The translations under genes and the position numbers were made by a program. This document shows positions 1-16,338 of a stretch of DNA of 21,827 bases, piece after piece. Each line of letters opens with the position of its first letter. The first letter of the stretch is position 1. Source of the DNA: a virus. The notes below the pieces were generated by a model. That model saw only the letters and a program-made list of their open reading frames with translations, was not told the origin of the DNA and searched no databases. The stretch spans positions 1 to 21,827 of the IMG/VR virus record IMGVR_UViG_3300045972_000043; one strand, 5' to 3'.

Positions 1-3000
1 GTCAATATGGTCCTCAAGCCCGAGTTTCTTTACTACCTCAGACTCTAACCAATAGTATCCCTTGGTACCCACGACAGCGTGCCGCTTCCCATCGGATACT
101 CGCATAAGAGTCATACCATATTCTTTTTCCATTGGGCAGAATTGCCCCGTTCTTCCGACATATGTGCTATTGAACAATTCTCCTTTCTCGTCCAATTGGT
201 CTAGATAGAAGTCTGCATCAACTGCGGCTTTTGTTTCGCACATATCTTCGAAGAGCACGGGTTCTTTAGAGAACATGTTCTTGAAGACATACGGGTGACT
301 GTACTGCGCACCAGTCGAGGTCCACTCATTAGCGTGCTTGCCGCCTTTTGTGCGAATGCCCTTGTCGTCATATTTGGCGATGTAGACGGCATCGTTGGCT
401 AGGAACATCTTTGCATAAGTAGCCTCATGCTCGAAGTCATAGCCATACTGCTTGCCATAAGCGAAGACGAAGTCAACAATTTCCTGTGTAGCATCGGGGA
501 TCTTTATTGAGTCGGTCTTAATATGGGCGACAGTAAATCCACGGGCTTGCACCTCATGCTTCAGGTTGATCATGAAGAGCGCACCGCGCTTAGCGACGAC
601 ATTGTCATTGTTGCGGGGATCTTTGAAGGGATTGTTGAATGCCGCCGAAGTTAGCCCATAAACGATGTTAAGGGCAATTTTCAGCGCATTTGCCAGGTTG
701 CCGGATGCTTCTTTGTCAACTAGGTACTTCTCCAACACACCGCCGAGCATTCCCTTAGCAGAGTCATAATCCTTGTGCTTGATTGCAATGCGGGCATCCT
801 TTAGGTCACTGTAATTCTTAGTGTAGGGTCCAAAGAGACCCATAAGAATAATAGACGACGGATGCATTGACGCGATGTCAAGTAAGGCAACATTCTTATA
901 GACGCCATGCTCAGCATACACATAGCCGCCTTCACCAGGGTTTTCGCCTCGATAGAGGCTCTTACCGTGCTCGAAGGTATAACCAGGAAACAGCTTTGAA
1001 AGATCTGGGTAGATGAACTTATCCTGGGGATGATTGTCATTACCAAATATGATCTTGGCTGCATGACGTTGGGTTGTCTCGTTCATGCTAAGACCGCTCA
1101 ACTCGGATAGGATCTTTCTTGCAACAACGTCTTCCTTGATGTGGTGATATACAACTTCCAAGGATCGGACATCGTTGCCGCAGTATTCAATTACTAGGGG
1201 TATTAGTTCTTCGGGAACTGGAAGGTTCCATGGGTGTCCTAACTCCTGGTGATGAATACCAAGTTCAATCTGCCATTTCTTCAAGGACTGTTTCTTTGTT
1301 GCCACGTCGTAGACATCCAAGTAACTGACATTGTACGCTTCGCCAAACAGGCAAGATCGATTATTACTAATGATCTTTTGGCTAAGCCTGTACAGATCTT
1401 CAATGCTATAACCCAAATAGCAGGCATACAGCATGTGGTTGTCATAGCGACGATTGTTGAATCCAACGGTCTTTAACTTAAGAAGGTGCTCAATCTCTTG
1501 AGGGGTTGGATTAAGAAGGTTGACCATTTGGTCGTCCCCCTCATATTTCCAACACACAAGAAACATATTGCTAAAACACTCGACGTCGTAAAAAACTACC
1601 CTATCTTCTTCTTGAAATCCCTTATCCACGCTTGGCTCGACAGACGCAAACTTCATCTGAGTTACCCGGCGGACACAATACTCCTTTTGGTTAGTGCTCC
1701 GCATTGCGAAAGACAAGATGCGACCACGCATGTCTGAGACATCATAATGCATCCCTGATTTGGTTGCCTCTTCAAGAATTGTATAGATGAAGTCAATACT
1801 CGGACGGGTGCCTGGATGGATCTCTTTTGCCAGATTCTTCTCGATCAGGTTGCGAAGACCCATCTCAGATCGGACTACTTTGTCGTTGATCACCTTCTCC
1901 TCCTTTAATGGGAGTCCACCGTTTAAGGTAGCTACCGCGAGTTTGTTGCATTTACTTAGCTTGCGACGAAGGGCAGCGTCACCGTTGAAGACTTTTATCT
2001 CGATGCCAGGCGAATATAGGTTGCTGAGCCTGCTTGCGTCACCGGTGTAGAAGTAGTGAAGATGTAGACCCTCGCCACTCTTACTCAGTTCAGCATATGT
2101 TGGAGGCCAACTGCTAGCAGCTTCTAGGACCCTTACCACAGACTTGTATCCTTTTTCATCTTTCATATCAAAATCGATAACGATGTGGGTGGTTTCCCCC
2201 GGTTCTGGAAGTTGGACATAGTGCAATTGAGTTGTATCCAAATCCCACAATTGTGTTTTTACGTCGATCCATCGCTTCTCCGGAGTACCAGCGTCATTAG
2301 CATACTGTGCAAGACATATTCCGCACATCTCGTCGAACAGGGAAGGCCCTTCTTCTAGAACTATCCACGACTCATTCTCTTCTTTACCAACCAGCTCTTG
2401 CTCAGTAGAGAATTTATCCGCACGAAATCCTTGGTAGTAGTTTCTAACCTGCTTACCTTCGACTCGTGTTACGTCGTGTAGTTTTACGAAGTAACTTCGC
2501 AATTCTTCGCGGAATTTATACTTCGGCTCGATCCGGTCTATCTTCGACTCAGAGCAATACTGCTTATACCAGTCATACGCCTGAGTTAGAGTTGCACCAT
2601 CCTGAGTTTGGAACTGCTCGAAATACGACTCAACATAGTTGAAAAAGATATTCGTTTCAAACATCATGTCTACTGGTTTATACAGGGCGTAATAGTTCTT
2701 GCCCAATTTCTTGTAAACCTCCAGACAGTGCCAAGCGATAGCGCCCAACTCGAAGTCTATCCGAGCTACGAGGTCGTAATACTGTTTTACGGGGACCTTA
2801 CGGCCTGAGGGTCGAACATCGATAAGACGACGGATAAGACCCGATTTGGCATTGGTGATCTTAACAGGGCTGTTCGTTCCCATGAATAAGAAACAATTGA
2901 AAGACATCATGTAAGGCGTCTTATATTTCTCGTTCATGTTCATATTATCGTGCCCAACAAGACTGTTAAACATTGTGTTGGTTTCGATCCTGGATAGATC

Positions 3001-3702
3001 TCCATCGTGATCAATTGCTACTAAAGGATTGTTCTTTAGTATTTCCAACGCAAACGAATTGTTATTTGAGGTTATCGCCTTCGCATCGAATGCACTGTAA
3101 TATCCTTCGAACAACTTTTGCACAATATTTAAATATGTTGTTTTACCAGATCCGCCCTCGCCGTACAAAACAATAAACTTTTCGATCTTCTTCGAGTCGC
3201 CGGATATAACTGCTCCAATACCCCACTCAAGCTTCTCTAGCTCTTTAGGTTCGTACAAGGTTGTCGAGAGTTCCGTATATGCAGAATGATCGCCCTCGGC
3301 TAAAGAATAAGGTAAGCGTTTGCTTACATAATCCGATTTGCTTGTTGGTGTGTTGGTAAACGTTAACTTCTCGTCGATTTGGTGTGATGAATCGGCAAGT
3401 TTTGATAGATAGGTTTTGAACTCAGTCCATCTTCCGGAACTGAATTCCTGCATCGACTTAACGACAACTTTGGCGCCAGGGGTTGTTTTCTCGATCTCCT
3501 CCTTTCTTGCAAAGAGATCTTCATCAACCAAGCGTCGGAGTTCATACTCGTCGGTGCTCCATAGTTCTTTCGCTTTATCCCACACAGCGTAGAACTTTGA
3601 ACCTCTCACCATCATGTCGTGAGATCTGACAACCCTAAAATCGGGCGACAGTTCTATTTTTCCTGATGGTAGGGTGCGTTCTTTTATCTTGTAAAAATCC
3701 AC
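1..3702 (-). CDS. Helicase-primase-family B DNA polymerase fusion protein (partial, 3' end outside window)
   Basis: A single frame of 1234 sense codons starts at GTG 3702 and is still open at base 1. AGGAG lies 8 nt before the GTG. Domains in order: an unassigned N-terminus (1-170); an SF3/D5-type helicase with Walker A GEGGSGKT (181-188), an acidic LVAIDHDGD stretch (227-235), MGTNSPV with the sensor Asn277, and arginines 291-292; a winged-helix-like part (about 390-450); an archaeo-eukaryotic primase core with IDFD (509-512), SGEGLHLHY (542-550) and GIEIKVF (566-572); a DEDDy exonuclease with YDVE (705-708), GFNNRRYDNHML (747-758) and YCGND (840-844); and family B polymerase motif A DIASMHPSSI (D942), motif B K1008-N1012-YG (1015-1016) and motif C KTDS (1062-1065). 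I checked that the helicase, primase, exonuclease and polymerase motifs are all in the same frame. It should unwind, prime and copy the phage genome from the adjacent repeat region. The first Asp of the usual DTDS is Lys. The thumb lies beyond the window. Confidence 0.93.
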   Translation of the reverse strand, partial: MDFYKIKERTLPSGKIELSPDFRVVRSHDMMVRGSKFYAVWDKAKELWSTDEYELRRLVDEDLFARKEEIEKTTPGAKVVVKSMQEFSSGRWTEFKTYLSKLADSSHQIDEKLTFTNTPTSKSDYVSKRLPYSLAEGDHSAYTELSTTLYEPKELEKLEWGIGAVISGDSKKIEKFIVLYGEGGSGKTTYLNIVQKLFEGYYSAFDAKAITSNNNSFALEILKNNPLVAIDHDGDLSRIETNTMFNSLVGHDNMNMNEKYKTPYMMSFNCFLFMGTNSPVKITNAKSGLIRRLIDVRPSGRKVPVKQYYDLVARIDFELGAIAWHCLEVYKKLGKNYYALYKPVDMMFETNIFFNYVESYFEQFQTQDGATLTQAYDWYKQYCSESKIDRIEPKYKFREELRSYFVKLHDVTRVEGKQVRNYYQGFRADKFSTEQELVGKEENESWIVLEEGPSLFDEMCGICLAQYANDAGTPEKRWIDVKTQLWDLDTTQLHYVQLPEPGETTHIVIDFDMKDEKGYKSVVRVLEAASSWPPTYAELSKSGEGLHLHYFYTGDASRLSNLYSPGIEIKVFNGDAALRRKLSKCNKLAVATLNGGLPLKEEKVINDKVVRSEMGLRNLIEKNLAKEIHPGTRPSIDFIYTILEEATKSGMHYDVSDMRGRILSFAMRSTNQKEYCVRRVTQMKFASVEPSVDKGFQEEDRVVFYDVECFSNMFLVCWKYEGDDQMVNLLNPTPQEIEHLLKLKTVGFNNRRYDNHMLYACYLGYSIEDLYRLSQKIISNNRSCLFGEAYNVSYLDVYDVATKKQSLKKWQIELGIHHQELGHPWNLPVPEELIPLVIEYCGNDVRSLEVVYHHIKEDVVARKILSELSGLSMNETTQRHAAKIIFGNDNHPQDKFIYPDLSKLFPGYTFEHGKSLYRGENPGEGGYVYAEHGVYKNVALLDIASMHPSSIILMGLFGPYTKNYSDLKDARIAIKHKDYDSAKGMLGGVLEKYLVDKEASGNLANALKIALNIVYGLTSAAFNNPFKDPRNNDNVVAKRGALFMINLKHEVQARGFTVAHIKTDSIKIPDATQEIVDFVFAYGKQYGYDFEHEATYAKMFLANDAVYIAKYDDKGIRTKGGKHANEWTSTGAQYSHPYVFKNMFSKEPVLFEDMCETKAAVDADFYLDQLDEKGELFNSTYVGRTGQFCPMEKEYGMTLMRVSDGKRHAVVGTKGYYWLESEVVKKLGLEDHID

Positions 3703-3728: not shown

Positions 3729-4193
3729 AAAAACCCCGGTGGGATAGTTTTGTTACAATGTTACACTTTTTTGTCCAAAACTATTATATATATTATATAT
3801 ATTCTATAAAGAGTTTATGACGTTAAAAGTGTAACATTGTAACACGACCCTCCAAAAATGGCCTAAAACGCCGATTTCGCCCGTCGGATAGTTTAAAAAC
3901 ACCCAAAAACGCGTAAAAACCCCGGTGGGAGAGTTGTAAAACACCCTAAAAACCCCGGTGGGAGAGTTGTTTTTGTTACATCTTTTGTCACAAAACTGTA
4001 ACATAACCATTTTCGACAACTATCCCACCGGGCCTTTTTCAGACCCCTTTTGAAATAGTACCGGTGGGAGAGTTGAGTTCTGTTACAAACGGTCAAAAGT
4101 GTAACACGTTTGTAACACGTTTGTAACGGCTTTACCGGGCCTTTTTCAACTATCCCACCGGGCCTTTTTCAACTATCCCACCGGGCCTTTTTC
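3729..4193. repeat. Bidirectional CCCGGTGGGA(T/G)AGTTG repeat family
   Basis: Copies reading on the plus strand lie at 3729-3749, 3915-3936, 3948-3969 and 4061-4075. Copies in the opposite orientation lie at 4017-4040, 4147-4170 and 4170-4193, with a half copy at 4130-4146. The last two are a perfect tandem with a 23-bp period, and the final one runs into the stop codon of the flanking gene. Plus copies carry AAAAACC before the core and minus copies carry AAAAAGG, so two sub-families exist. Oppositely oriented copies could pair into long hairpins. Confidence 0.88.
3751..3844. repeat. Perfect 20-bp inverted repeat around an AT-rich core
   Basis: TGTTACAATGTTACACTTTT at 3751-3770 is the exact reverse complement of 3825-3844. 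Each arm contains two TGTTACA motifs spaced 8 bp apart. The 54-bp interior includes an uninterrupted stretch of alternating T and A. This could be a cruciform, paired binding sites for an initiator, or both. Confidence 0.9.
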
Positions 4194-4485
4194 AACTTTC
4201 GTTGATAAACTTCTCCAAAAGGTTCTGCTCGGGAGCCAGGAAACGATCGCAATACTCCACCCAAGTGATCCCCATATCCTGAGCCCGCATCCGCTGCACG
4301 CGCTCGTGGCTCGACATCCAGTGCTTCTTCGAAGCGGCGTTCGCCTTCGTCGGAGACATGTGCCCAACGATCTTCGGCCCGTGTTTGGTCCCGGTGTGCT
4401 TGCCGGATTCATCCTTCACCAGACGTTTGATCACTGCCAAATGCCGCAGCTTATCATTCCACAACTTGTTCCATGCTTCACCCAT
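4192..4485 (-). CDS. Hypothetical phage protein, 97 residues
   Basis: I chose ATG 4485 because AAGGAG lies 7 nt upstream, overlapping the stop region of the preceding gene. A longer in-frame extension would run deep into that gene without a ribosome binding site. The protein is basic and soluble, with many Lys, Arg and His in the first two thirds (for example KHGPKIVGH near residue 40) and no membrane segment or metal-binding pattern. It is the last gene before the repeat region, and its stop TGA lies inside a copy of the origin repeat. A DNA-binding role is conceivable from charge and position only. I do not recognise the family. Confidence 0.8.
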   Translation of the reverse strand: MGEAWNKLWNDKLRHLAVIKRLVKDESGKHTGTKHGPKIVGHMSPTKANAASKKHWMSSHERVQRMRAQDMGITWVEYCDRFLAPEQNLLEKFINES

Positions 4486-4496
4486 TTCGAATCTCC

Positions 4497-5063
4497 TTAA
4501 GCCAAATACGCCATTGCCTGATACCAGATGTCCACTTTCCTCTGGTCTTGATTGGACCACTTCAGCGGGAATAACCCTCCGCCCCTACCAAGTTCATCGT
4601 ACTCGCGATTGAAGAACTTATCGATCAAGTCCTCATTTCTCGACATCGCCTCATGGAAATAGGCATAGTCATCTTCAATCGCCTTAAGCCCCATATTCCC
4701 TACCATAAGCCAGAAGTAAGCGGACACCGAGAAGTTTTCAAATCTCTCGGCGCCGATATACTCCAGTCGTCTCGCCAGTGCGACCAAGCACTCCAGCAAA
4801 GATGCGTCTCCGGTTAAGGGATTAACTTTTGGAGTGTCGCCATCCTTCTGCAAGAATTCCCAACGCAGGCTAAGACCGTCCAAATATCGGTCTTCATCGC
4901 GGGGGACTCTTTTCGAGAATTCGAACTTCTGAATATGGAGCTCCCAAACAAACTTAGCGCAGTTGTTCTTTGCTGGACTTACGTCGATTTGAGCGCAAAT
5001 CCAATCGAAGTATTCAATCTCAACTCGCGCGCTTCGCCGTTTTCTTGCGAGGCTGATTGTCAT
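4497..5063 (-). CDS. Uncharacterised phage protein, 188 residues
   Basis: ATG 5063 is preferred, with GAGGG upstream at workable distance; it overlaps the end of the preceding gene by 44 nt. The protein is soluble and rich in aromatic residues, starting its conserved-looking part with EYFDW. It continues through a PRDEDRYLDGLSLR block to a C-terminal half with FFNREYDELGRGGGLFPLKW and WYQAMAYL. From memory this resembles an uncharacterised family of Gram-positive phages, often near DUF6353 genes, with an EYFEWL start and a REYE-DGRGGLF end. That resemblance is unverified and no function is known to me. It is coupled to the gene before and the gene after, so it belongs to the same operon. Confidence 0.82.
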   Translation of the reverse strand: MTISLARKRRSARVEIEYFDWICAQIDVSPAKNNCAKFVWELHIQKFEFSKRVPRDEDRYLDGLSLRWEFLQKDGDTPKVNPLTGDASLLECLVALARRLEYIGAERFENFSVSAYFWLMVGNMGLKAIEDDYAYFHEAMSRNEDLIDKFFNREYDELGRGGGLFPLKWSNQDQRKVDIWYQAMAYLA

Positions 5064-5802
5064 TTGCCGCCCTCTTCGCTGCCACGGCAGCAACTTTTGC
5101 CCGAACCCGAGCGTCGTTCTCGTCATAGCGCAGAGCGACGACCAGGAAGGCCTTCTTCGACCGAGTTACCTCGTAGTCCACGCCCTTCTTCGCGTCGCGG
5201 ACGTAAACCAGGTCGGGATCATCGACAAGCTTTCCAAAGCTGACCAGGGCATCAATGCCAAGAACTTCTTCCGGGTTCGGGATTACTTTGTCGTCGTCAT
5301 CCGCGAGAACATCGTCAGCCTCGTAGTAAGCGTACTGCACGAGTTCGTTGCCGGTCTCGCCGTATTGGTCCTCGCGAATAAGCTCGGGACCGTCCAGCGG
5401 CTTGGTGACCGGCTCGTCTTCCAACAACTTTGCAACCTCTTCAATCGGGGGGTTGACATGGCCGCTTTTCTTCGCCTTCTTTTTGGCCGGGGCAGTATAG
5501 TCGACAACCTGCTGGGGCTCTTTTTTAACTGGCTTGTCTTCCTCAGCCTTCGGGGTCCCATCCCAATACTCGTCGGCCTTGTCGTTGGCAACCGCAGTTT
5601 CAACAATCGCCGTAGCCAATGCCTTGGCCTCGTGAACCTCATAAACATATTTCATCCTTTCTGCATCGATCCGGTCTTTCTCAAGCTGGGCTTGCCACTC
5701 AATCTCTTCATTGATAGCAACCCCTAAACGTGCTCCAAGTGCTCCGCCAAGCAGAATAAACATTGCCAAACGCATTCCTTCTCTAGCCGTATCGCCAATC
5801 AT
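5020..5802 (-). CDS. Membrane-anchored acidic phage protein, 260 residues
   Basis: ATG 5802 follows AAAGGAG at 7 nt. Residues about 11-30 form one glycine-rich hydrophobic segment, followed by a charged, probably helical stretch (31-70) and a Lys/Pro/Glu-rich linker. A compact domain then includes YYEADDVLADDDDKVI, a GIDALVSFG piece and DLVYVRDAKKGVDYEV. The C-terminus is very basic (QPRKKTAKRAS). The 'YY-DDVLAD-DD-VI ... FG ... VYVR' pattern resembles an uncharacterised family of Gram-positive phages usually found next to DUF6353 proteins, as here. The role is unknown; the layout suggests a cytoplasmic domain tethered to the membrane. The next gene starts inside its 3' end. Confidence 0.85.
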   Translation of the reverse strand: MIGDTAREGMRLAMFILLGGALGARLGVAINEEIEWQAQLEKDRIDAERMKYVYEVHEAKALATAIVETAVANDKADEYWDGTPKAEEDKPVKKEPQQVVDYTAPAKKKAKKSGHVNPPIEEVAKLLEDEPVTKPLDGPELIREDQYGETGNELVQYAYYEADDVLADDDDKVIPNPEEVLGIDALVSFGKLVDDPDLVYVRDAKKGVDYEVTRSKKAFLVVALRYDENDARVRAKVAAVAAKRAANDNQPRKKTAKRAS

Positions 5803-5873: not shown

Positions 5874-6821
5874 TCAGATCTTAAATTTCAGCAAGCTGAG
5901 AATCGGGCCGTCGACGTTGAAGTCGAGGACTGCGCAAGATTCTTGCCCCGCGCAGAAGGCCTGGTTAACCGTATCCTTCAACCCGAAGTCGACATAGTCA
6001 TCGTGCTTACCATTGTAATACCACCCAACGCTCCATCCTGCTTCGGTTTCTTCGAAACCCAGCATTCGGTAGACGTCATTCAAGAAGATATGACCGCGGC
6101 TTTGCAGAGTCCAATTGGCCTCACGCTGAATTCCTTCCACGAACGCCAGATTTGCCCAGGGCGTCGTGCGGAAATGGACAGGACTGTTGATTTTATCAAA
6201 GATCCTGGAGTAGTCGCTCAGGCCGTTGTCGTCGAAGTGCATCTTCCATTTCTCGGGGGTCTCAACTTCGCCATCCTTGCCAATCACAGCAGGTTCGGAG
6301 ACCTCGGTCGCATTCAACCGGATCATATTCTCGCGATCGTCGCCAACTTCCTTCTGGACACGACGGCGATACTTCTTGAACGAACTATCCAACAGCGTAT
6401 ACGCAGCGCTAACAGCCACCAGTTGGCCATTGAGCATCTTGTATCCGCCCAGGATAGACACCAGGCTTACCACGCCGACAGTCGCAGGCAGAGCGTAGAG
6501 TTTCCCGACGTTGAGCCACTTCTTGGTGTGCGCCAGGAGAACGTCGCGCTGCTTGTTTTCTTCGGTGTAGATCGCGCCCTTCACCAAACGCTTTCCGATC
6601 GAGAGATCGGAGTCTTCTTCAACGCGGTCAATCTCTTCGTCACCGTCCCACAGGGTGCGATCAAGGTCATACGTAGCCTTCGAGGCTAGCACGACAGTCG
6701 CAACCATACCAATACAGCCACCGATAATCATCAGCATCGGGCCGTTCTTCTTTGTCCACAGTTCAGTGCGACCGAGGGCGAAGCGCCCAGCGGCCAAACC
6801 TTTTTCAAGAATTTTGATCAT
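5874..6821 (-). CDS. DUF6353-like membrane protein (copy B), 315 residues
   Basis: Start ATG 6821 has AAAGGA upstream. Two hydrophobic segments lie at about 28-47 and 106-126, separated by an acidic loop. A helical stretch (about 133-160) ends in a KKYRRR cluster. The C-terminal domain has a RGHIFLNDVYRMLGF block, then VGWYYNGK, DYVDFGL and LDFNVDGPI. This matches the pattern I associate with DUF6353, a phage membrane protein of unknown function; the N-terminus is more divergent than in the second copy at 10021-10839. It is followed by the membrane-anchored acidic protein, a pairing that recurs in Gram-positive phages as far as I recall. A sense run follows its TGA stop in the same frame (see findings). 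Confidence 0.88.
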   Translation of the reverse strand: MIKILEKGLAAGRFALGRTELWTKKNGPMLMIIGGCIGMVATVVLASKATYDLDRTLWDGDEEIDRVEEDSDLSIGKRLVKGAIYTEENKQRDVLLAHTKKWLNVGKLYALPATVGVVSLVSILGGYKMLNGQLVAVSAAYTLLDSSFKKYRRRVQKEVGDDRENMIRLNATEVSEPAVIGKDGEVETPEKWKMHFDDNGLSDYSRIFDKINSPVHFRTTPWANLAFVEGIQREANWTLQSRGHIFLNDVYRMLGFEETEAGWSVGWYYNGKHDDYVDFGLKDTVNQAFCAGQESCAVLDFNVDGPILSLLKFKI

Positions 6822-9995: not shown

Positions 9996-10023
9996 AATAT
10001 AAGCGTGGTTTTTTACGCGTCTA
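9996..10023 (-). promoter_or_regulatory. Shared-family promoter for 9754-9966
   Basis: ACGCGTAAAAAACCACGC precedes a TATATT -10 at 9996-10001. The block begins directly at the TAG stop of the DUF6353-like gene before it. The leader GATACATATACTTTTG is nearly identical to that of the 12847-12996 gene. Confidence 0.72.
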
Positions 10024-10839
10024 CAGAAATGACAACTTGGTTCCAGACGGCAAGGGCATCGGGCGCTGCATGTATTCGAGAGTAATGCACGGCGTATTGT
10101 CCGCAGCAAGTTTCGCGCCGAAGTCAATATTCAGCATAAACTCGTCGACAGTTCCGTTCTTGACAGACCATCCGACCAGATCTCCAAGACCAGTGACCGG
10201 AAGACCCAAGGCGCAGTACCATTCGTTGGCCGTCTTGTACTGGCAGCGCAGAAGGTCTTCGTTGAAGTCATTCATCTTGCGCCGGACGGTCTCAATGTCG
10301 CCTTTGAAGTAGCGCCCAGAGAGTCCGTCGTAGCATAACGTGTCACCACCAGTAAAAATGATCTGGGTGTTGTTGATCGGAGTTGCATCGAGCTTGTCCT
10401 GCATGATCTCGCCTCTCAACTCCTGTTCCTTCTTCTCGCCAACCTTCTCAATGATCTTTTCGCGGTATTTCGTGATCGTCGTCTCGGCAAGCCCGTACAA
10501 GGCAGCCAGAGCCGAATATCGTTTTTCCCCAATAGAATGGGCGGCGACAATGCAAGCGATCGTTGCTAGGCCCATCCCAGCCGCGGGGATGTAGTTTTTC
10601 CAGGTGAGAAGGGCTTTTTCTTTGAGTGTCAGATCCATTGGAGCGGGATAACCTTCAACTGCTGTGTCCCGGTCCAACTCGTTTCTGATCATAAGAGCAG
10701 ATTCAATCCCAGCATCAGCAGCCATGACAGCAGTGGTAACAACTCCGCCAACTGCGAGAGTGGTCAGGATGGTCGTTGAGTGCTCTTTACCAAAGCCTGC
10801 TATCAGGCCAAATATGTTACGTGCGTTGGTGATGTTCAT
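10021..10839 (-). CDS. DUF6353-like membrane protein (copy A), 272 residues
   Basis: ATG 10839 has GGAAGGT 4-5 nt upstream and overlaps the preceding gene by 23 nt; 16 further upstream in-frame codons are left out for lack of a site. Two membrane segments lie at about 22-42 and 84-101. They are followed by HSIGEKRYSALAALYGLAET, a helical KYREKIIEKVGEKKEQ stretch, and a C-terminal domain with GGDTLCYDGLSGRYFKGDIE, NEWYCALGL, LGDLVGWSV and PCITLEY. The order and motifs closely fit DUF6353 as I remember it (YIPA, VG-KKE, DG-SGRYF, LG--VGW), a family common in Gram-positive phages and of unknown function. The domain after the second span should be cytoplasmic if the charged loop faces inward. Confidence 0.9.
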   Translation of the reverse strand: MNITNARNIFGLIAGFGKEHSTTILTTLAVGGVVTTAVMAADAGIESALMIRNELDRDTAVEGYPAPMDLTLKEKALLTWKNYIPAAGMGLATIACIVAAHSIGEKRYSALAALYGLAETTITKYREKIIEKVGEKKEQELRGEIMQDKLDATPINNTQIIFTGGDTLCYDGLSGRYFKGDIETVRRKMNDFNEDLLRCQYKTANEWYCALGLPVTGLGDLVGWSVKNGTVDEFMLNIDFGAKLAADNTPCITLEYMQRPMPLPSGTKLSFL

Positions 10840-11014
10840 TTTTACCTTCCATAAAGGTCTTAGCACAACTTTTGATAGTCTGTCCAAGTAAAACAGGAGA
10901 AAAACCAGTCGCGGAAGCCAGTTCTATGATTTTCGAACGTTCTTCTTTCGTGAAACCCATGGCCCATAAATCTCGTTCGTCTTTACTAATAGGGATTGGC
11001 TCCGAGTCGCTCAT
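10817..11014 (-). CDS. Hypothetical phage protein, 65 residues
   Basis: ATG 11014 follows AGAGGAT and overlaps the stop of the 13-codon gene (ATGA). It starts MSDSEPIPISKDERDLW and has a small helical part (FTKEERSKIIELASATGF, SPVLLGQTIKSCAKTF) reminiscent of a compact helix bundle. The start region is nearly identical in DNA to that of the gene at 11049-11339, with the same MSD opening and the same upstream sequence, which suggests local duplication. Its end holds the ribosome binding site of the DUF6353-like gene. Family not recognised. Confidence 0.78.
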   Translation of the reverse strand: MSDSEPIPISKDERDLWAMGFTKEERSKIIELASATGFSPVLLGQTIKSCAKTFMEGKNEHHQRT

Positions 11015-11879: not shown

Positions 11880-12116
11880 TTAGATCTTGTTGAACAAGAC
11901 GTTGTTGATGATCAGATGCCGGACAACGCCGTCAGGGTCTGTGATCGTTTTAACGTTGATCTTGTGCGGCATCAGGTTGCGGGCCGCTTGGAAACCCCGG
12001 TCGTACCCAGCACTGTAATAGAGAACAGCGACGGTTCCAAGAACAATCCCTAAGGTTGTCGTTGGATGTGCATAGGCGAACTTTTTAACTTTACTTCCAA
12101 ACTCGTTCCAATCCAT
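11880..12116 (-). CDS. Single-span membrane mini-protein, 78 residues
   Basis: ATG 12116 has GGAGG upstream at 6 nt; the in-frame ATG further upstream overlaps the promoter and is rejected. The N-terminus is MDWNEFGSKVKKFAYAHP, followed by one span (about 19-37, TTTLGIVLGTVAVLYYSAG) and a soluble part with TITDPDGVVRHLIINNVLF. It has its own promoter and a structured leader. No family recognised. Confidence 0.78.
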   Translation of the reverse strand: MDWNEFGSKVKKFAYAHPTTTLGIVLGTVAVLYYSAGYDRGFQAARNLMPHKINVKTITDPDGVVRHLIINNVLFNKI

Positions 12117-12141
12117 GTCAATCCTCCATCGAAAGTTTTTA

Positions 12142-12188
12142 AGAGAAGTAGCAGCAATTGCACCCGAAGGCCCGGCCCCTACTTCTCT
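12142..12188 (-). other. Structured 5' leader of the 11880-12116 mRNA
   Basis: AGAGAAGTAG and CTACTTCTCT form a perfect 10-bp stem starting within a few nucleotides of the expected transcript start. The interior contains GCCTTCGGGT, which can form a UUCG tetraloop hairpin. A 5'-terminal hairpin of this kind could protect the mRNA or hold a regulatory fold. Confidence 0.5.
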
Positions 12189-12189
12189 C

Positions 12190-12217
12190 ATTATAGCCGT
12201 GGTTTTTTACGCGTCTA
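12190..12217 (-). promoter_or_regulatory. Shared-family promoter for 11880-12116
   Basis: ACGCGTAAAAAACCACGG precedes TATAAT at 12190-12195. The block abuts the TAG stop of the preceding gene. Confidence 0.75.
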
Positions 12218-12667
12218 CTTAACCTTCCACCAAATACTGCCGGACGCCGTCTTTGCCTTGTGGTACTCAAGCGTGGAAAGCTTGTGCTTGAAGTGGTCCC
12301 CAACAACATGCTCATCGCCGTTGCTGTCGTTGTAGAAGGTTGCCTTATTCTCGCCAACCTGAACCCAAAGCATCTCAACTATCACTTCATCATCGTCATT
12401 ATCGATAACACGCCCACAGCGCTTAGCCGAGATCAGGCCCTGGTTGCCTTTCCAGTTGGTGCCTTCCAGTTGGATGTCTTTCCATACGAGTTGCCCGATT
12501 TCGAGTTGCGACTTCACGAGCTCAATCTTCTGCTCGTAATCCATCTTCGCCAGCGACAGCTGACCTTCCGGAGTCTGAGACCAGCGAAGAGCGTCCATTT
12601 CCTTCGCCTTCTGATCGACCAATTTGGCGACATGCGCCCGTGATGCACAGTTCTGAATACCAGCCAT
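12215..12667 (-). CDS. Hypothetical soluble phage protein, 150 residues
   Basis: ATG 12667 (MAGIQNCAS) has AAGGAG 8 nt upstream; an ATG three codons earlier would overlap that site. The first 65 residues look helical (AHVAKLVDQKAKEMDAL, MDYEQKIELVKSQLE). The rest is beta-like with RVIDNDDDEVIVEMLWVQVG and ends GSIWWKVK. It differs from its neighbours in being soluble and larger. It has its own promoter and a long hairpin leader. No terminator follows; the promoter of the next gene begins at its stop codon. Family not recognised. Confidence 0.78.
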   Translation of the reverse strand: MAGIQNCASRAHVAKLVDQKAKEMDALRWSQTPEGQLSLAKMDYEQKIELVKSQLEIGQLVWKDIQLEGTNWKGNQGLISAKRCGRVIDNDDDEVIVEMLWVQVGENKATFYNDSNGDEHVVGDHFKHKLSTLEYHKAKTASGSIWWKVK

Positions 12668-12698
12668 TTCTAACACTCCTTCAAAAATTGAAAATAGT

Positions 12699-12778
12699 GA
12701 GACTAAGATATGTTAACGTCCAAGCCGTAATGCCCGGAATATTCTTGACGTCAGAATTGTAACTCATATCTTACTCTC
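12699..12778 (-). other. Long hairpin leader of the 12215-12667 mRNA
   Basis: The arms 12699-12717 and 12759-12778 pair over about 19 positions with one mismatch and a bulge (CATATCTTAGTCTC against GAGAGTAAGATATG). An inner ACGTC/GACGT stem (12716-12720 with 12747-12751) continues the fold. It begins at the expected transcript start and precedes an unusually long leader of about 100 nt. An unidentified cis-acting RNA is possible. Confidence 0.5.
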
Positions 12779-12803
12779 ATAATAGCATATGATTTTTACG
12801 CGT
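12779..12803 (-). promoter_or_regulatory. Shared-family promoter for 12215-12667
   Basis: CACGCGTAAAAATCATATGC precedes a TATTAT -10 at 12779-12784. It lies just after the terminator of the 12847-12996 gene. Confidence 0.65.
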
Positions 12804-12806
12804 GCC

Positions 12807-12839
12807 AAAATGGGAGGACACGTTTCTGTGTTCCCATTT
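12807..12839 (-). terminator. Terminator after 12847-12996
   Basis: AAATGGGA and TCCCATTTT form the outer stem. ACAC/GTGT is the inner stem closing an AGAAAC loop. It has A-runs before and T-runs after, so it could work in both directions. Confidence 0.8.
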
Positions 12840-12846
12840 CCTTACA

Positions 12847-12996
12847 CTACCCTCCGACGACTTTATGCCAGTGTTCGATGATCCGGTTGCGCATCTGCTC
12901 GGCCTTCCGTGCGACGTCGATGATGAACTCAATCATCTTAATCAGCATCCACAGAAAAACCACAGTCGCATAAACCTTTCTCAAAAACTTCCGCAT
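12847..12996 (-). CDS. Membrane-associated mini-protein, 49 residues
   Basis: ATG 12996 has GAAGGAG 7 nt upstream; the stop is TAG 12847. The protein starts with a basic MRKFLRK, then a hydrophobic segment (about 8-27, VYATVVFLWMLIKMIEFIID) and an amphipathic charged helix ending HWHKVVGG. It is monocistronic between its own promoter (13028-13056) and terminator (12807-12839), which supports its reality in spite of its size. No family recognised. Confidence 0.75.
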   Translation of the reverse strand: MRKFLRKVYATVVFLWMLIKMIEFIIDVARKAEQMRNRIIEHWHKVVGG

Positions 12997-13027
12997 TTAA
13001 AACTCCTTCGACAAAAGTATGTGTATC

Positions 13028-13056
13028 ACTATATGCTCAGTTATTTTAGCGTGGAT
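13028..13056 (-). promoter_or_regulatory. Shared-family promoter for 12847-12996
   Basis: CACGCTAAAATAACTGAGCA precedes a TATAGT -10 at 13028-13033. It overlaps the TAA stop of the preceding gene. The leader GATACACATACTTTTG matches that of the 9754-9966 gene. Confidence 0.62.
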
Positions 13057-13264
13057 ATCGCTTAAGAATATCCAGACCTTCCGACCACATCTGATTGCAC
13101 ACCTTGTCGATCTCCACTAAACCTCTGTGAAGTTCCCAACTCGGTTTAAAAGACACAAAGCACCAGACCATCATAATGAGTGTTATCAATCCCATTAGGA
13201 TAGTCACGAAGACCAGGGCAATCAGCCCAATGACCCACTTCCAAATCCACCAGATAGTTTTCAT
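13046..13264 (-). CDS. Trp-rich membrane protein, 72 residues
   Basis: ATG 13264 has GGAGGA 3-4 nt upstream. The N-terminus MKTIWWIWKW leads straight into a long hydrophobic segment (about 11-38) with IGLIALVFVTILMGLITLIM. A soluble C-terminal helix follows (ELHRGLVEIDKVCNQMWSEGL). Unlike its neighbours it has no TATAAT promoter; only the CTAACCATATTT element separates it from the terminator of the gene before, so it may depend on readthrough. No family recognised. Confidence 0.75.
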   Translation of the reverse strand: MKTIWWIWKWVIGLIALVFVTILMGLITLIMMVWCFVSFKPSWELHRGLVEIDKVCNQMWSEGLDILKRYPR

Positions 13265-13288
13265 TCTTCCTCCAAATATGGTTAGGCG

Positions 13289-13322
13289 AAAAGAGGAGGA
13301 CAGGTTTCCCTGATTCCTCTTT
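13289..13322 (-). terminator. GAAA-loop terminator after 13330-13509
   Basis: AAAGAGGA and TCCTCTTTT form the outer stem. TCAGG-GAAA-CCTG is the inner hairpin. A T-run follows. The gene at 13046-13264 begins only 25 nt further on. Confidence 0.8.
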
Positions 13323-13329
13323 CAAACAA

Positions 13330-13509
13330 TTAGTTCTTGAACAAGCTGATCTGGCGTTCGATCAAAGCGAACAGCATCTTGTAAAACCGAACAAACACGT
13401 AGACAGACAAAGTCATCGAGACGCCGCAAAGCGCCATGTAGACAATGAAAGCAACGAGAATGCTCCGAATAACTTCGGCGCTGATAACGATGTTAATTCC
13501 GTCAATCAT
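13330..13509 (-). CDS. Membrane mini-protein, 59 residues
   Basis: ATG 13509 (MIDGINIVIS) has GGGAG 8 nt upstream; an in-frame ATG 11 codons earlier would fall at or before the transcript start. One long hydrophobic stretch (about 13-45) with SILVAFIVYMALCGVSMTL could cross the membrane once or as a tight hairpin. It is followed by a basic end (FALIERQISLFKN). Own promoter and terminator. No family recognised. Confidence 0.78.
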   Translation of the reverse strand: MIDGINIVISAEVIRSILVAFIVYMALCGVSMTLSVYVFVRFYKMLFALIERQISLFKN

Positions 13510-13540
13510 TTTTAACTCTCCCAAAACTAGAATATGTTTC

Positions 13541-13568
13541 ATTATAGCAGTGGTTATTTACGCGTGCG
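13541..13568 (-). promoter_or_regulatory. Shared-family promoter for 13330-13509
   Basis: CACGCGTAAATAACCACTGC precedes TATAAT at 13541-13546. GAAACATATTC follows the -10, as in several members. Confidence 0.75.
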
Positions 13569-13604
13569 AAAATGGGAGCCTAAGTTTCCCTAGACCCTCC
13601 ATTT
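13569..13604 (-). terminator. GAAA-loop terminator after 13612-13854
   Basis: AAATGGAGGG pairs imperfectly with CTCCCATTTT. The inner part is CTAGG-GAAA-CTTAG with a G-U pair. It ends in TTTT and touches the next promoter. Confidence 0.8.
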
Positions 13605-13611
13605 CCTTAAA

Positions 13612-13854
13612 TCACTTAGTCATAAACCGGATTTCTTTCCATTGATCGGATATAACCACGACGAAACCGTTGAGACTTATTTTGAATCCTTTCTTGACCC
13701 CGCCGGTGCGACCGTATGTGAATATACCAGTGACGAACACCGGAAACATTACAACAATACTAATCGCGCAGGCGACAATCGCCAAAGCAGTCATAGCAAT
13801 CCACAACCAAATTTTCAACGCGTCTAACCAAACACCTAACAGAAATTTACCCAT
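13612..13854 (-). CDS. Membrane protein, 80 residues
   Basis: ATG 13854 (MGKFLLGVW) has AAAGGAG upstream; earlier in-frame ATGs overlap the -10 box or precede it. A strongly hydrophobic region (about 15-45, WLWIAMTALAIVACAISIVV then MFPVFVTGIF) can make one or two spans. A glycine/lysine-rich turn (GRTGGVKKGFK) and a short NGFVVVISDQW segment follow, with a basic end. Own promoter and terminator. No family recognised. Confidence 0.8.
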   Translation of the reverse strand: MGKFLLGVWLDALKIWLWIAMTALAIVACAISIVVMFPVFVTGIFTYGRTGGVKKGFKISLNGFVVVISDQWKEIRFMTK

Positions 13855-13879
13855 TTCATTCTCCTTTAGATTTAATTTC

Positions 13880-13905
13880 ATTATAGGCGCAGTTATTCTC
13901 GCGAA
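13880..13905 (-). promoter_or_regulatory. Shared-family promoter for 13612-13854
   Basis: TCGCGAGAATAACTGCGCC precedes TATAAT at 13880-13885. The leader GAAATTAAATC is identical to that of the 13943-14062 gene. Confidence 0.75.
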
Positions 13906-13939
13906 AAAGGGAGGAGACGTTTCCGTCGTTCCCCTTTTT
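13904..13939 (-). terminator. GAAA-loop terminator after 13943-14062
   Basis: AAAAAGGGGAACGACG-GAAA-CGTC and CTCCCTTTTT form a long stem with a GAAA loop, followed by T5. It directly abuts the next promoter. Confidence 0.82.
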
Positions 13940-13942
13940 GAA

Positions 13943-14062
13943 TTATTTCTTTTTGAACGATTTTCCAACAAAGTAGATAACAACAACGATGGTTGCAATG
14001 ACGAGCAGGGCTTTACCCAGCACAACGAACATTCCGACACCAATCACAGCGCTTTCTAGCAT
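13943..14062 (-). CDS. Single-span membrane mini-protein, 39 residues
   Basis: ATG 14062 has TTGGAG upstream at 8 nt; the stop is TAA 13943. The protein is almost entirely one membrane helix (about 5-32, VIGVGMFVVLGKALLVIATI) with a basic KSFKKK end, so the C-terminus should be inside. Its small size fits a holin-like, antiholin-like or exclusion peptide, but nothing specific identifies it. Own promoter and terminator. Confidence 0.75.
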   Translation of the reverse strand: MLESAVIGVGMFVVLGKALLVIATIVVVIYFVGKSFKKK

Positions 14063-14094
14063 TTTAGTTTTCTCCAAAAAATAGATTTAATTTC

Positions 14095-14122
14095 ATTATA
14101 GGCGTGGTTTTTTACGCGTGTG
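14095..14122 (-). promoter_or_regulatory. Shared-family promoter for 13943-14062
   Basis: CACGCGTAAAAAACCACGCC precedes TATAAT at 14095-14100. This is the closest member to the consensus; GCGT-N8-ACGC inside it is an inverted repeat. Confidence 0.8.
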
Positions 14123-14158
14123 AAAATGGGAGGCTGAGTTTCCCCAGCGCCCATTTTT
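14123..14158 (-). terminator. GAAA-loop terminator after 14163-14342
   Basis: AAAAATGGG and CCCATTTT form the outer stem. GCTGGG-GAAA-CTCAGC is the inner hairpin with one G-U pair. It could work in both directions. Confidence 0.82.
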
Positions 14159-14162
14159 GAAC

Positions 14163-14342
14163 CTACTTCCAAAAATCGTTCTCAAAACAAGTCTTAACAT
14201 TCGTCCCTGTGTTAAAGCAGACTGGGCCCCATTTATTTGTGGTTTCATCAACCCGGCTAATAGCCGAGCTAATTAAAGCCGCAATACAAATGGTCGCCAC
14301 GACCAAAATCAACACAACGATTCGTTCCGTTTTCTTGTTCAT
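14163..14342 (-). CDS. Exported or anchored protein with a Cys pair, 59 residues
   Basis: ATG 14342 (MNKKTERIVVL) has AAAAGGAG 7-8 nt upstream. A basic start is followed by a hydrophobic segment (about 9-26, VVLILVVATICIAALISS). The remaining 33 residues are polar, with WGPVCFNTGTNVKTCF holding C42 and C52. The positive-inside rule would place this part outside the membrane, where the two cysteines could form a disulfide. A surface role such as superinfection exclusion is only a guess. Own promoter and terminator. Confidence 0.78.
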   Translation of the reverse strand: MNKKTERIVVLILVVATICIAALISSAISRVDETTNKWGPVCFNTGTNVKTCFENDFWK

Positions 14343-14370
14343 TTCACACTCCTTTTTTGAAATATGTTTC

Positions 14371-14396
14371 ATTATAGGCGTGGTTATTCGCGCGAA
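14371..14396 (-). promoter_or_regulatory. Shared-family promoter for 14163-14342
   Basis: TCGCGCGAATAACCACGCC precedes TATAAT at 14371-14376, followed by GAAACATATTTC. Confidence 0.77.
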
Positions 14397-14430
14397 AGAG
14401 AAATGCTAAGTTTCCCTAACATCCCTCTTC
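14395..14430 (-). terminator. GAAA-loop terminator after 14448-14636
   Basis: AGAGGGATGTTAG-GGAAAC and TTAGCATTTCTCTTT form an imperfect stem with the usual loop. It touches the next promoter. Confidence 0.72.
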
Positions 14431-14447
14431 CCCATATCCCTTATGGC

Positions 14448-14636
14448 TTACTCGCCGCGTTTCTTCTGCGATCTGTTGTCAGCGATAAGATAGACAATCC
14501 CACCAAGAATAAACATCCCGAATAAGGCGCCTCCTACTTGAATAGTAGTGTTTTGGCGAATTATTCTTTGCTGATTCTTTTGGATCTTTTCTAGCTCGTC
14601 CATGACCTTTGCATCAACAACCGTAAACTGCTGCAT
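14448..14636 (-). CDS. Coiled-coil plus membrane-span mini-protein, 62 residues
   Basis: ATG 14636 has AAAGGAGG upstream. Residues 1-30 form a soluble helix with heptad-like spacing (VMDELEKIQKNQQRIIRQ). A glycine-rich span follows (about 32-51, QVGGALFGMFILGGIVYLIA), then a basic tail (DNRSQKKRGE). The layout resembles small phage membrane proteins such as antiholins, without a diagnostic motif. Own promoter and terminator. Confidence 0.78.
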   Translation of the reverse strand: MQQFTVVDAKVMDELEKIQKNQQRIIRQNTTIQVGGALFGMFILGGIVYLIADNRSQKKRGE

Positions 14637-14664
14637 AGTACCTCCTTTTCATAGAATATGTTTC

Positions 14665-14690
14665 ACTATAAGGGAGGTTATTCACGCGAA
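14665..14690 (-). promoter_or_regulatory. Shared-family promoter for 14448-14636
   Basis: TCGCGTGAATAACCTCCC precedes a TATAGT -10 at 14665-14670, followed by GAAACATATTC. Confidence 0.68.
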
Positions 14691-14725
14691 AAAGGTAGGC
14701 TAGGTTTCCCCAGCCGTTCCCTTTT
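14690..14725 (-). terminator. GAAA-loop terminator after 14729-14965
   Basis: AAAAGGGAACGGCTGG-GGAAAC and CTAGCCTACCTTTTT pair into an imperfect stem with a T-run. Confidence 0.75.
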
Positions 14726-14728
14726 GAA

Positions 14729-14965
14729 CTACTTCCAAAATTGCCAGAATTTCTTCGGTTGTTTGATTTGATAAAATGTCAGTTCAAGATTCAAGATTTT
14801 GATTCTCCGTTCGAGTTTACTTAAGCCGTATTCATGCGCTGTGATCGCTGCTGCTCTATTAGCAGGATCTTTCATGCTGAAAATGCTCAAATAAAACTCG
14901 TCAAGAGATTGATTCGTGATCTTTAGATCTGATATTTCCTTGCCCAATCTTTCAAGTTCAGTCAT
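14729..14965 (-). CDS. Soluble coiled-coil protein, 78 residues
   Basis: ATG 14965 has AAAGGAG 6 nt upstream. The protein is helical throughout (MTELERLGKEISDLKI, GLSKLERRIKILNLEL), with no membrane span. It ends in an aromatic, basic KKFWQFWK that could insert at a membrane surface. It stands out among membrane-span neighbours with the same promoter type. No family recognised. Confidence 0.78.
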   Translation of the reverse strand: MTELERLGKEISDLKITNQSLDEFYLSIFSMKDPANRAAAITAHEYGLSKLERRIKILNLELTFYQIKQPKKFWQFWK

Positions 14966-14991
14966 CTCTTTCTCCTTTTAGATTTAGTTTC

Positions 14992-15018
14992 ATTATAGGC
15001 GCAGTAATTCGCGCGTAA
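14992..15018 (-). promoter_or_regulatory. Shared-family promoter for 14729-14965
   Basis: ACGCGCGAATTACTGCGCC precedes TATAAT at 14992-14997. GCGC-N8-GCGC forms an inverted repeat. Confidence 0.75.
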
Positions 15019-15054
15019 CCTATTTTAGGAATTTTACTCCGCGGGATTTTTTCG

Positions 15055-15090
15055 AAAAACGGTATGCTAAGTTTCCTTAACATACCATTT
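15055..15090 (-). terminator. GAAA-loop terminator after 15113-15403
   Basis: GGTATGTTAAG-GAAA-CTTAGCATACC followed by GTTTTT is a strong stem with one G-U-type position. A further GC-rich palindrome (CCGCGG) lies between it and the next promoter. Confidence 0.82.
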
Positions 15091-15112
15091 CCGTACAACT
15101 TCTTGATTCGAC

Positions 15113-15403
15113 TCAAACACGTCCCTTAAGGACAAAGCTAATGGCCTTGCTTGAGATCACCCTGAGTTGTTCGTACTCAAGGATGACCACGATTCCGAGG
15201 ATATTCGTCACGGCTACGATAACCGTATCCATGCTAAACGACGGTTTCGACTTTGCAGTCGTAATCGCGTATAGCGCAGTTAAGTTATCTGTAGCGTGCA
15301 AATACTCCTCGCTACCGACGGTCATCTTTGACATCGCTGTCAACACATGAATGACCTCATCATCAATTACCAGTTTCTTTACTTCCTTCTTACGGAACCA
15401 CAT
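15113..15403 (-). CDS. Membrane protein of a phage family of unknown function, 96 residues
   Basis: ATG 15403 has GAGAGGAG upstream. The N-terminus MWFRKKEVKKLVIDDEV is basic then acidic. It is followed by a helical part with a SEEYLHATDNLTALYAI segment, then one membrane span (about 60-76, TVIVAVTNILGIVVILEYE) and a short C-terminal SSKAISFVLKGRV. From memory this resembles a common family of small proteins of Gram-positive phages ('Y---V-NL--L ... VTSKAL-FVLK'), function unknown. It is the first gene after the holin and has its own promoter and terminator. Confidence 0.82.
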   Translation of the reverse strand: MWFRKKEVKKLVIDDEVIHVLTAMSKMTVGSEEYLHATDNLTALYAITTAKSKPSFSMDTVIVAVTNILGIVVILEYEQLRVISSKAISFVLKGRV

Positions 15404-15461: not shown

Positions 15462-15998
15462 TTATTCGCTTGTACGTTCCATGGCTTGTCTGGCAGCCTC
15501 AATTTGAGAAATCTCGACCTTGTATTGGGCGTTGCTAATCCCTAGGAATATTCCCATGAAAGTGTCGATTGCGGCGATAGTTCCGATTACCTGGTCTCCA
15601 TATTGGAAACCCCAGATCGGACTTAACGCGACGGTGATTGTTCCAATGGAGGGAAGCAGGTATTGAGTGAAGAACATCAGAATGTCGTAAGTCTCTTCTG
15701 TCATTTTGATTATTAGACCAGTGCGACGTTCTTGAGTGGGAAAGGTTTTGATGTCTAGCGCAGCGGATCGCTTTAAGAGTTGTCCACCAAGGGACTTAAC
15801 ATCGGCCTGGTATTGTTTGTTCCCCATTCCAAGAACGAACCCCAAGGCAGAGTCAATAGCCATGACGGATAACACAATCTCGTCCCCATAAGGGAAACCC
15901 CAGATCTGTGTCAAGGCGAAGTACAGGGTTGCCAAGCCTGGTAAGAGATACTGGGCAACCCATTTCAAACGGTCGTAAGTTTCATTTGAGATCCGCAT
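15462..15998 (-). CDS. Tandem-duplicated Dp-1-type holin, 178 residues
   Basis: ATG 15998 has AAGGA upstream and overlaps the preceding gene by 17 nt. Residues 3-63 and 99-159 are two copies of one unit that align without gaps at an offset of 96. Shared positions include ETYD, QYLLP, PIWGF or QIWGF, YGD, a central AID, LG and N-QY. The unit matches the Dp-1-like phage holin pattern (short N-terminal helix, two spans with IWG-P-Y between, then LG). Such holins are normally one unit of about 65-80 residues. A linker of about 35 residues joins the units and a charged tail ends the protein. It should form membrane lesions at lysis; the fusion could fix dimer geometry or pair an active with a modulating unit. 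No terminator follows it. Confidence 0.85.
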   Translation of the reverse strand: MRISNETYDRLKWVAQYLLPGLATLYFALTQIWGFPYGDEIVLSVMAIDSALGFVLGMGNKQYQADVKSLGGQLLKRSAALDIKTFPTQERRTGLIIKMTEETYDILMFFTQYLLPSIGTITVALSPIWGFQYGDQVIGTIAAIDTFMGIFLGISNAQYKVEISQIEAARQAMERTSE

Positions 15999-16338
15999 CT
16001 TTTCCTTCCTCGTGCATAGCCTTCTCAAAACGTGACTCAATGATCTGAAGTTTCTTAACTTCGGTCATCACACGCTCTGCGGTTCCGTTTCCGCCCAATT
16101 CCTTGTAAGGGACGAAGAGATAATCGTGTAAATTCTCAAACTCATCCCGAGTTATCTGACCTTTCTCCAAAAAGTGGAATTCAAGCCAGATAATCCGGTC
16201 GTGAGCGATACCCATAAGCAGTTTGCGTTCCAAACCCCTCGATTCGTTCAGTTTTGACATAAACAGCCAAAACCCCGAGGACATCAGACCCGCGATTACG
16301 ATAGAAGCGAGTATTTCTAGTAATTTCACTGTATCCAT
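15982..16338 (-). CDS. Membrane protein next to holin, holin/antiholin-like, 118 residues
   Basis: ATG 16338 (MDTVKLLEIL) has AGAGGA 6 nt upstream. One membrane span (about 7-27) is followed by a cytoplasmic helical part with ERKLLMGIAHDRIIWL, ITRDEFENLHDYLFVPYKELGGNGTAERVM. The 'LL-G-AHDRI ... EY-NLHDYLY-PYK-LGGNGTAE' pattern is one I remember from small proteins beside holins in Gram-positive phages, with no established biochemical role. Position and topology suggest that it modulates the holin. The holin start lies inside its 3' end, so the two are translationally coupled. Confidence 0.82.
   Translation of the reverse strand: MDTVKLLEILASIVIAGLMSSGFWLFMSKLNESRGLERKLLMGIAHDRIIWLEFHFLEKGQITRDEFENLHDYLFVPYKELGGNGTAERVMTEVKKLQIIESRFEKAMHEEGKDADLK

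Follow-up and report, generated by a model that had tools for sequence, protein, structure and literature searches.

A HelPrimPolB/GP55-type replicase in a soil-phage fragment and a candidate replication origin directly upstream of its gene

The window, by which we mean the whole 21,827-bp linear IMG/VR fragment analysed here, carries a single long minus-strand frame in which a helicase, a primase and a polymerase appear to be fused, with a repeat-rich gap directly upstream. This raises the question of what kind of protein the frame encodes, whether its domain order is new, and whether the repeats belong to the same replication system. A sequence-only reading had described one frame without a stop over 1234 codons, called its domains in helicase-first order and proposed a near-complete replisome on one polypeptide, with a hint that the upstream repeats are part of it. 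We assign a probability of about 0.6 to the combined reading, in which a GP55-type replicase is served by the upstream array as its replication origin; that the gene is a HelPrimPolB/GP55-type replicase, taken by itself, is practically certain.

The frame is indeed open over all 1,234 codons, from a GTG at position 3702 to base 1 of the minus strand. A ribosome-binding site (GAAAGGAG) lies immediately 5' of this GTG, and homologues begin at the matching position with MDFY... The 3' end is incomplete because the record stops at base 1, and the C-terminus lacks approximately 40-80 residues (about 40 judged by GP55 and about 79 by the homologous locus L002). The encoded protein begins with an SF3 helicase that ends in a winged-helix-like domain, followed in turn by an archaeo-eukaryotic primase (AEP), a small helical domain, a DEDDy exonuclease and, last, a family B polymerase (Table 1); the earlier domain calls and their order agree with the PHROG match, the alignment of homologues and the structure models described below.

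Table 1. Features of the replicase gene, the upstream gap and the neighbouring gene (positions in the window)
Feature	Position	Strand	Basis
Putative replication origin, 450-bp intergenic gap	3736..4184	.	two interleaved repeat sets, both orientations, around AT-rich stretch
Inverted pair GTTACACTTTT...AAAGTGTAAC around AT-rich stretch	3760..3835	.	exact match; 0/100 shuffles
AT-rich stretch CTATTATATATATTATATATATTCTATAAAG, proposed DNA unwinding element	3782..3812	.	sequence
Replicase N-terminal domain, residues 1-125	3328..3702	-	strands and helices, D5_N-like position; AF2 10-residue-block pLDDT 91-97
SF3 AAA+ helicase core, residues 140-335, Walker A GEGGSGKT (K187)	2698..3285	-	DUF5906 Pfam match; 7ola alignment; K187 = GP55 K189
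Winged-helix-like domain, residues 345-431, proposed iteron-binding	2410..2670	-	H-E-H-H-E-E order in AF2 model; position as in Cch2 origin-binding C-terminal domain
PriS-like archaeo-eukaryotic primase, residues 455-600	1903..2340	-	DFD 510-512, SKSGEGLHLH 540-549, EIK 568-570 invariant in 71 homologues; D512 = GP55 D509
aHD helical domain, residues 610-690	1633..1875	-	Y653/F665 = GP55 Y655/F667; four helices in AF2 model
DEDDy 3'-5' exonuclease, residues 700-870	1093..1605	-	D706, E708, N749/D754, Y840...D844 conserved
Family B polymerase, residues 871-1234	1..1092	-	motif A DIASMHPS, motif B KIALNIVYG, motif C KTDS; 3' end cut by record end
Conserved upstream neighbour gene, phrog_4678, no assigned function	4497..5126	-	GP55-type phages have a gene in the corresponding place, e.g. 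ReqiPepy6 gp071

The protein matches phrog_4210 almost from end to end (1,819 bits; profile positions 1-1260 of 1304), a PHROG of full-length fusion proteins that is annotated as DNA polymerase. In Pfam, DUF5906 (SF3 helicase) was detected at residues 185-298 (E 9.5e-14), while AEP matches stayed below the cut-off and PolB was not listed; for these two domains the alignment of homologues and the structure model described below are decisive.

The closest biochemical reference is GP55 of Lactococcus phage 1706, purified by Zhang et al. 2025 as a 'four-in-one replicase' (PMC12205980). That paper describes a UTP/dTTP-dependent helicase, an RNA primase, a 3'-5' exonuclease and a family B polymerase capable together of de novo DNA synthesis, with priming that needs a new helical domain, aHD. 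We aligned the window protein with 70 other full or near-full homologues and found K187, D510/D512, H547, D706/E708, D942 and the KTDS motif C (1062-1065) conserved among the 71 sequences. GP55 residues K189, D509, D712, E714 and D949 correspond to K187, D512, D706, E708 and D942 of the window protein and are present in 71/71 sequences; the aHD residues Y655 and F667 correspond to Y653 and F665, kept in 70/71 and 71/71, so that a single Y-to-F change in the Y653 column is the sole exception among the seven residues checked. The proposal of a near-complete replisome on one polypeptide is supported by this relative, 40% identical, for which such activity has been shown biochemically.

In the AF2 model of residues 2-445 (mean pLDDT 87.9) an N-terminal domain precedes an AAA+ core, and the model ends in a winged-helix-like domain. 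Of the solved structures it matches best the SaPI5 primase-helicase 7ola (Foldseek E 4e-11; VIA Z 22.9, rmsd 4.0, 368 residues, over residues 5-413), followed by poxvirus D5/E5, ASFV PrimPol and NrS-1 helicases. The winged-helix-like order of elements lies at residues 351-425 of the model, and the VIA alignment to 7ola ends at residue 413. The model of residues 430-1234 (pLDDT 84.2) matches family B polymerases, best of all Pol alpha (8g9l, Z 15.4 over model residues 265-726); PolB matches fill the list, and no primase fold is among the matches listed in this PDB search. Structure prediction, also suggested at the outset, bears out helicase and polymerase, and the primase assignment is supported by conserved motifs and the GP55 alignment, without a fold match.

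A novel domain order can be rejected. The helicase-primase-polymerase order is described in PMC7544198 and PMC12205980, and the search for proteins of the same order returned at least 252 phage records with at least 80% of the protein in one place. These homologues include phages of Gordonia, Arthrobacter, Streptomyces, Rhodococcus, Curtobacterium, Microbacterium, Faecalibacterium and Lactococcus. The fusion is of an already described kind, to which the window adds a soil-phage member; because identity is below 60% in all phage records matched, the window protein represents a distinct lineage, which in the tree adjoins IMG/VR contigs and Gordonia/Rhodococcus phages.

The repeat region directly upstream is real and lies in the gap between the replicase and a small ORF (4192-4560). 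One of its two repeat sets, AACTMTCCCACCGG, occurs there in seven exact copies and one with two mismatches, in both orientations, and is absent elsewhere in the window within two mismatches; allowing up to three mismatches gives 12 matches, where chance alone would give a mean of 2.05. The other set, TGTAACA, is found 11 times in the window (chance mean 1.94), nine of them in 3736-4184 and two in the other 21 kb. The motif AAGTG is contained in AAAAGTGTAACA and AAAAGTGGGC and is present in the TGTAACA set of the window. No Rfam match and no tRNA were found in the window. GC skew of the window and of phage 1706 shows no informative sign change; nearly all genes lie on one strand.

We propose that a HelPrimPolB/GP55-type replicase acts as a one-protein replisome, in which the SF3 helicase would unwind the DNA, the PriS-like domain together with aHD would make RNA primers, and the proofreading family B polymerase would extend them with strand displacement. 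Helicase, priming and extension steps are demonstrated for GP55 and are, in the window protein, what the conserved residues imply. The array at 3736-4184 would be the phage replication origin: the winged helix behind the helicase core may bind the iterons, copies of the replicase could then assemble around the AT-rich stretch that the inverted iterons enclose and melt it, and replication would start with primase and polymerase already attached. Origin function, and recognition by the winged helix of the replicase, are probable readings of the comparative evidence that follows.

Arrays of this kind recur in relatives. An 8-mer is repeated upstream of the replicase above all or all but one of 200 shuffles in the window and in seven other loci, and a few further homologous loci are borderline in the same test. 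The motif varies between clades, with TGTAACA (L002, L005, L006, L061), TGTGACA (L003, L022), AAAACTGGTA (L045, L047, L076) and GTGGTACA (L046) types. In the loci inspected by eye the common layout is repeats, an AT-rich stretch, a reversed repeat and the start codon, with a small ORF separating array and replicase in L003; spacers within the inverted pairs of relatives are 63-92% A+T. Two further clusters, in L068 (an SGSG-type coding repeat) and in L061 (+6,025), were set aside as not origin-like. Repeats of AATATCAC were seen in two related phages (L052 at about 11980-12400; L076 at +9168 from the replicase); in L052 they are spaced about 60-90 bp apart in seemingly mostly non-coding DNA and are possibly a regulatory array.

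To ask the question from the side of the DNA, all of IMG/VR was searched for the inverted pair alone, with a scrambled pair of the same composition as control. This motif-first scan returned 42 stretches, many from related phages and hence not independent, against one for the control. Just over half (22/42) precede a GP55-type replicase by some 0-280 bp, with gene starts extrapolated to the open frame, and another 12 have in their vicinity one of five further replication proteins with the same SF3 domain (PF19263). In three cases there is an array with no recognised replication gene in the surrounding DNA examined, one stretch adjoins a Toprim protein with only a weak P-loop match, and the last four lack an array. 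For the PF19263 proteins, a Pfam search of a single representative per group identified additional domains in some: an AEP in L120 and L121 and a Toprim primase in L087. The polymerase is a separate gene in L096 and L120, and relative to the helicase gene the array is on the downstream side in L087, L096 and L120 and about 1.5 kb upstream in L121. Since the array accompanies PF19263 genes whose polymerase is separate, and in downstream or distant placement, the comparison argues that it travels with the helicase module, and not with the polymerase or one promoter. A second scan, for TACCAGTTTT...AAAACTGGTA, returned only three known array loci and four single pairs without arrays, and gives no independent support.

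The array could instead be an operator or promoter, its repeats bound by a regulator or by the replicase itself to control replicase transcription. Autoregulation through iterons is common in plasmids, the array sits directly 5' of the start codon in the window and in the soil clade, and the AT-rich core could hold a promoter -10 element. We nevertheless consider an operator unlikely, given the downstream arrays just described and three phages in which array and replicase gene are kilobases apart. The L015 array, at about 10280-10720 and about 4.4 kb downstream of the replicase, consists of twelve AAGTGGGC copies around an AT-rich stretch and is a clean candidate origin. In phage 1706, all five exact AAAACTTCGGGA copies fall at 51,646-52,033, between orf74 and orf75 and 9 kb from gp55, and the count of the 9-mer AAAACTTCG is reached in 0/500 shuffles; we predict the origin of this phage at about 51,640-52,080. 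In FP_oengus, TTGGCCAAAAA-type repeats at about 26,900-27,080 were noticed by eye; the 7-mer search missed them, and their 9-mer count is beyond 500 shuffles.

Less probable still is that the origin lies elsewhere and the array serves partition, packaging or recombination, or consists of selfish repeats. The AACTMTCCCACCGG set leaves some room for this: it was not found in the k-mer survey of relatives' upstream regions, where only the TGTAACA set is shared. Set against it is the link of the array to SF3 helicase genes across different domain architectures, which disfavours packaging and partition because neither predicts such an association. As for the gene itself, the idea that three separate genes were joined by a chimeric contig or a missed frameshift has next to no probability, since the frame is open throughout and the 70 aligned homologues, including independently sequenced cultured phages, share the domain order and every joint.

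The replication-origin reading has its own counter-evidence. In SEC-MALS GP55 behaves chiefly as a dimer and not as a hexamer, and no origin was needed for its activity in vitro (PMC12205980); the available account reports the four activities and no origin. Also counting against an origin are the missing arrays in most members of a large gut clade (within flanks of about 6 kb), the motif that varies between clades and the unshared second repeat set. The suggestion that the upstream repeats belong to the replicase system nevertheless gains support from the comparative evidence, which suggests an origin as their probable function. A more general proposal, which we hold at even odds, is that GP55-type replicases are their own origin-recognition proteins, the winged helix behind the SF3 core binding clade-specific iterons around an AT-rich element, so that one gene and one 450-bp site would make up a complete initiator and replisome.

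Closer inspection of the winged helix showed that, within the GP55 family, a wing sequence R-[IVL]-x-x-K-x-x-R accompanies TGTAACA/TGTGACA arrays, and the same holds more loosely for L096 and L120; this tie between signature and motif is confounded by phylogeny. A one-residue wing code (T with TGTAACA, A with TGTGACA) fitted the first seven loci but broke down in loci outside that set: the residue at TGTAACA loci there is T, K, E, V or I, and L117 is mixed.

The remainder of the window holds three further features. A run of tiny minus-strand ORFs at 12600-15130 is separated by similar intergenic cassettes, each a GGAAAC-loop hairpin with a T-run followed by a -10-like element CCTATAATGAAA (four exact copies and one GCTATAATGAAA in this run; 12 within two mismatches in the window against a chance mean of 3.1); these look like repeated terminator-promoter units, one per small gene. 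A holin-like ORF (15462-16040) contains two tandem holin modules (phrog_881 and phrog_9233, two stretches each). Paralogous predicted membrane proteins (5874-6821 and 10021-10887, both phrog_2152, E about 1e-60) flank a set of small genes.

We found no description of an array upstream of a GP55-type replicase in the open-access literature searched. What the window adds is a candidate origin for this replicase family. Should the array prove to be the origin, one protein and one short DNA site would make up a complete system from initiation to synthesis, which would be attractive for reconstitution and DNA amplification.

Among known systems, HelPrimPolB was named in 2020 by Kazlauskas et al., citing an earlier description (PMC7544198). 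That paper places SF3 helicase and PrimPol domains N-terminal to the polymerase, as in the window protein, and gives a divergent motif C and KxY motifs as traits of the group; no distinguishing feature was found in a comparison of features other than the motif logos. Motif C of the window protein is the conserved KTDS. The 'DNA primase/polymerase' proteins of Petito (Gordonia), ReqiPepy6 (Rhodococcus) and MediumFry (Arthrobacter) are 53-55% identical over the whole length. Petito and ReqiPepy6 share with the window a gene of similar size just upstream of the replicase, but unlike it have no iteron array immediately upstream, and a 7-mer array search over 40 kb of Petito found nothing. GP55 has the same SF3-PriS-aHD-exonuclease-PolB order, 40.5% identity over 1,214 aligned positions, and the seven mutated residues that were checked are kept in the window protein; it differs in being complete at 1,317 aa, whereas the window protein is cut at 1,234, and the array of phage 1706, near 51.6-52.1 kb, is away from gp55, whereas that of the window is directly 5' of the gene.

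On the side of origin recognition, the initiator-type helicases of SaPIs (Rep) and SCCmec (Cch2) use a C-terminal domain to bind iterons; for Cch2, a relative of SaPI5 Rep, the iteron AAGTG is required (PMC7581432). The helicase region of the window protein aligns to the SaPI5 structure 7ola, AAGTG is present in the window TGTAACA set, and in both systems several short repeats lie by the helicase gene, in the window with the AT-rich element between its inverted pair. The SaPI5 protein and Cch2 carry no polymerase, and SaPI origins are downstream of rep, whereas the window array is upstream. L096 and L120 have the same kinds of helicase and polymerase, encoded by two unfused genes; Pfam places the primase domain of L120 ahead of the helicase, an order that it does not show for L096. 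Their AAAAGTGTAACA array adjoins the helicase gene (L096) or is one small ORF away (L120), and because the array is common to SF3 helicases attached to different primases, the comparison suggests that origin specificity resides in the helicase module.
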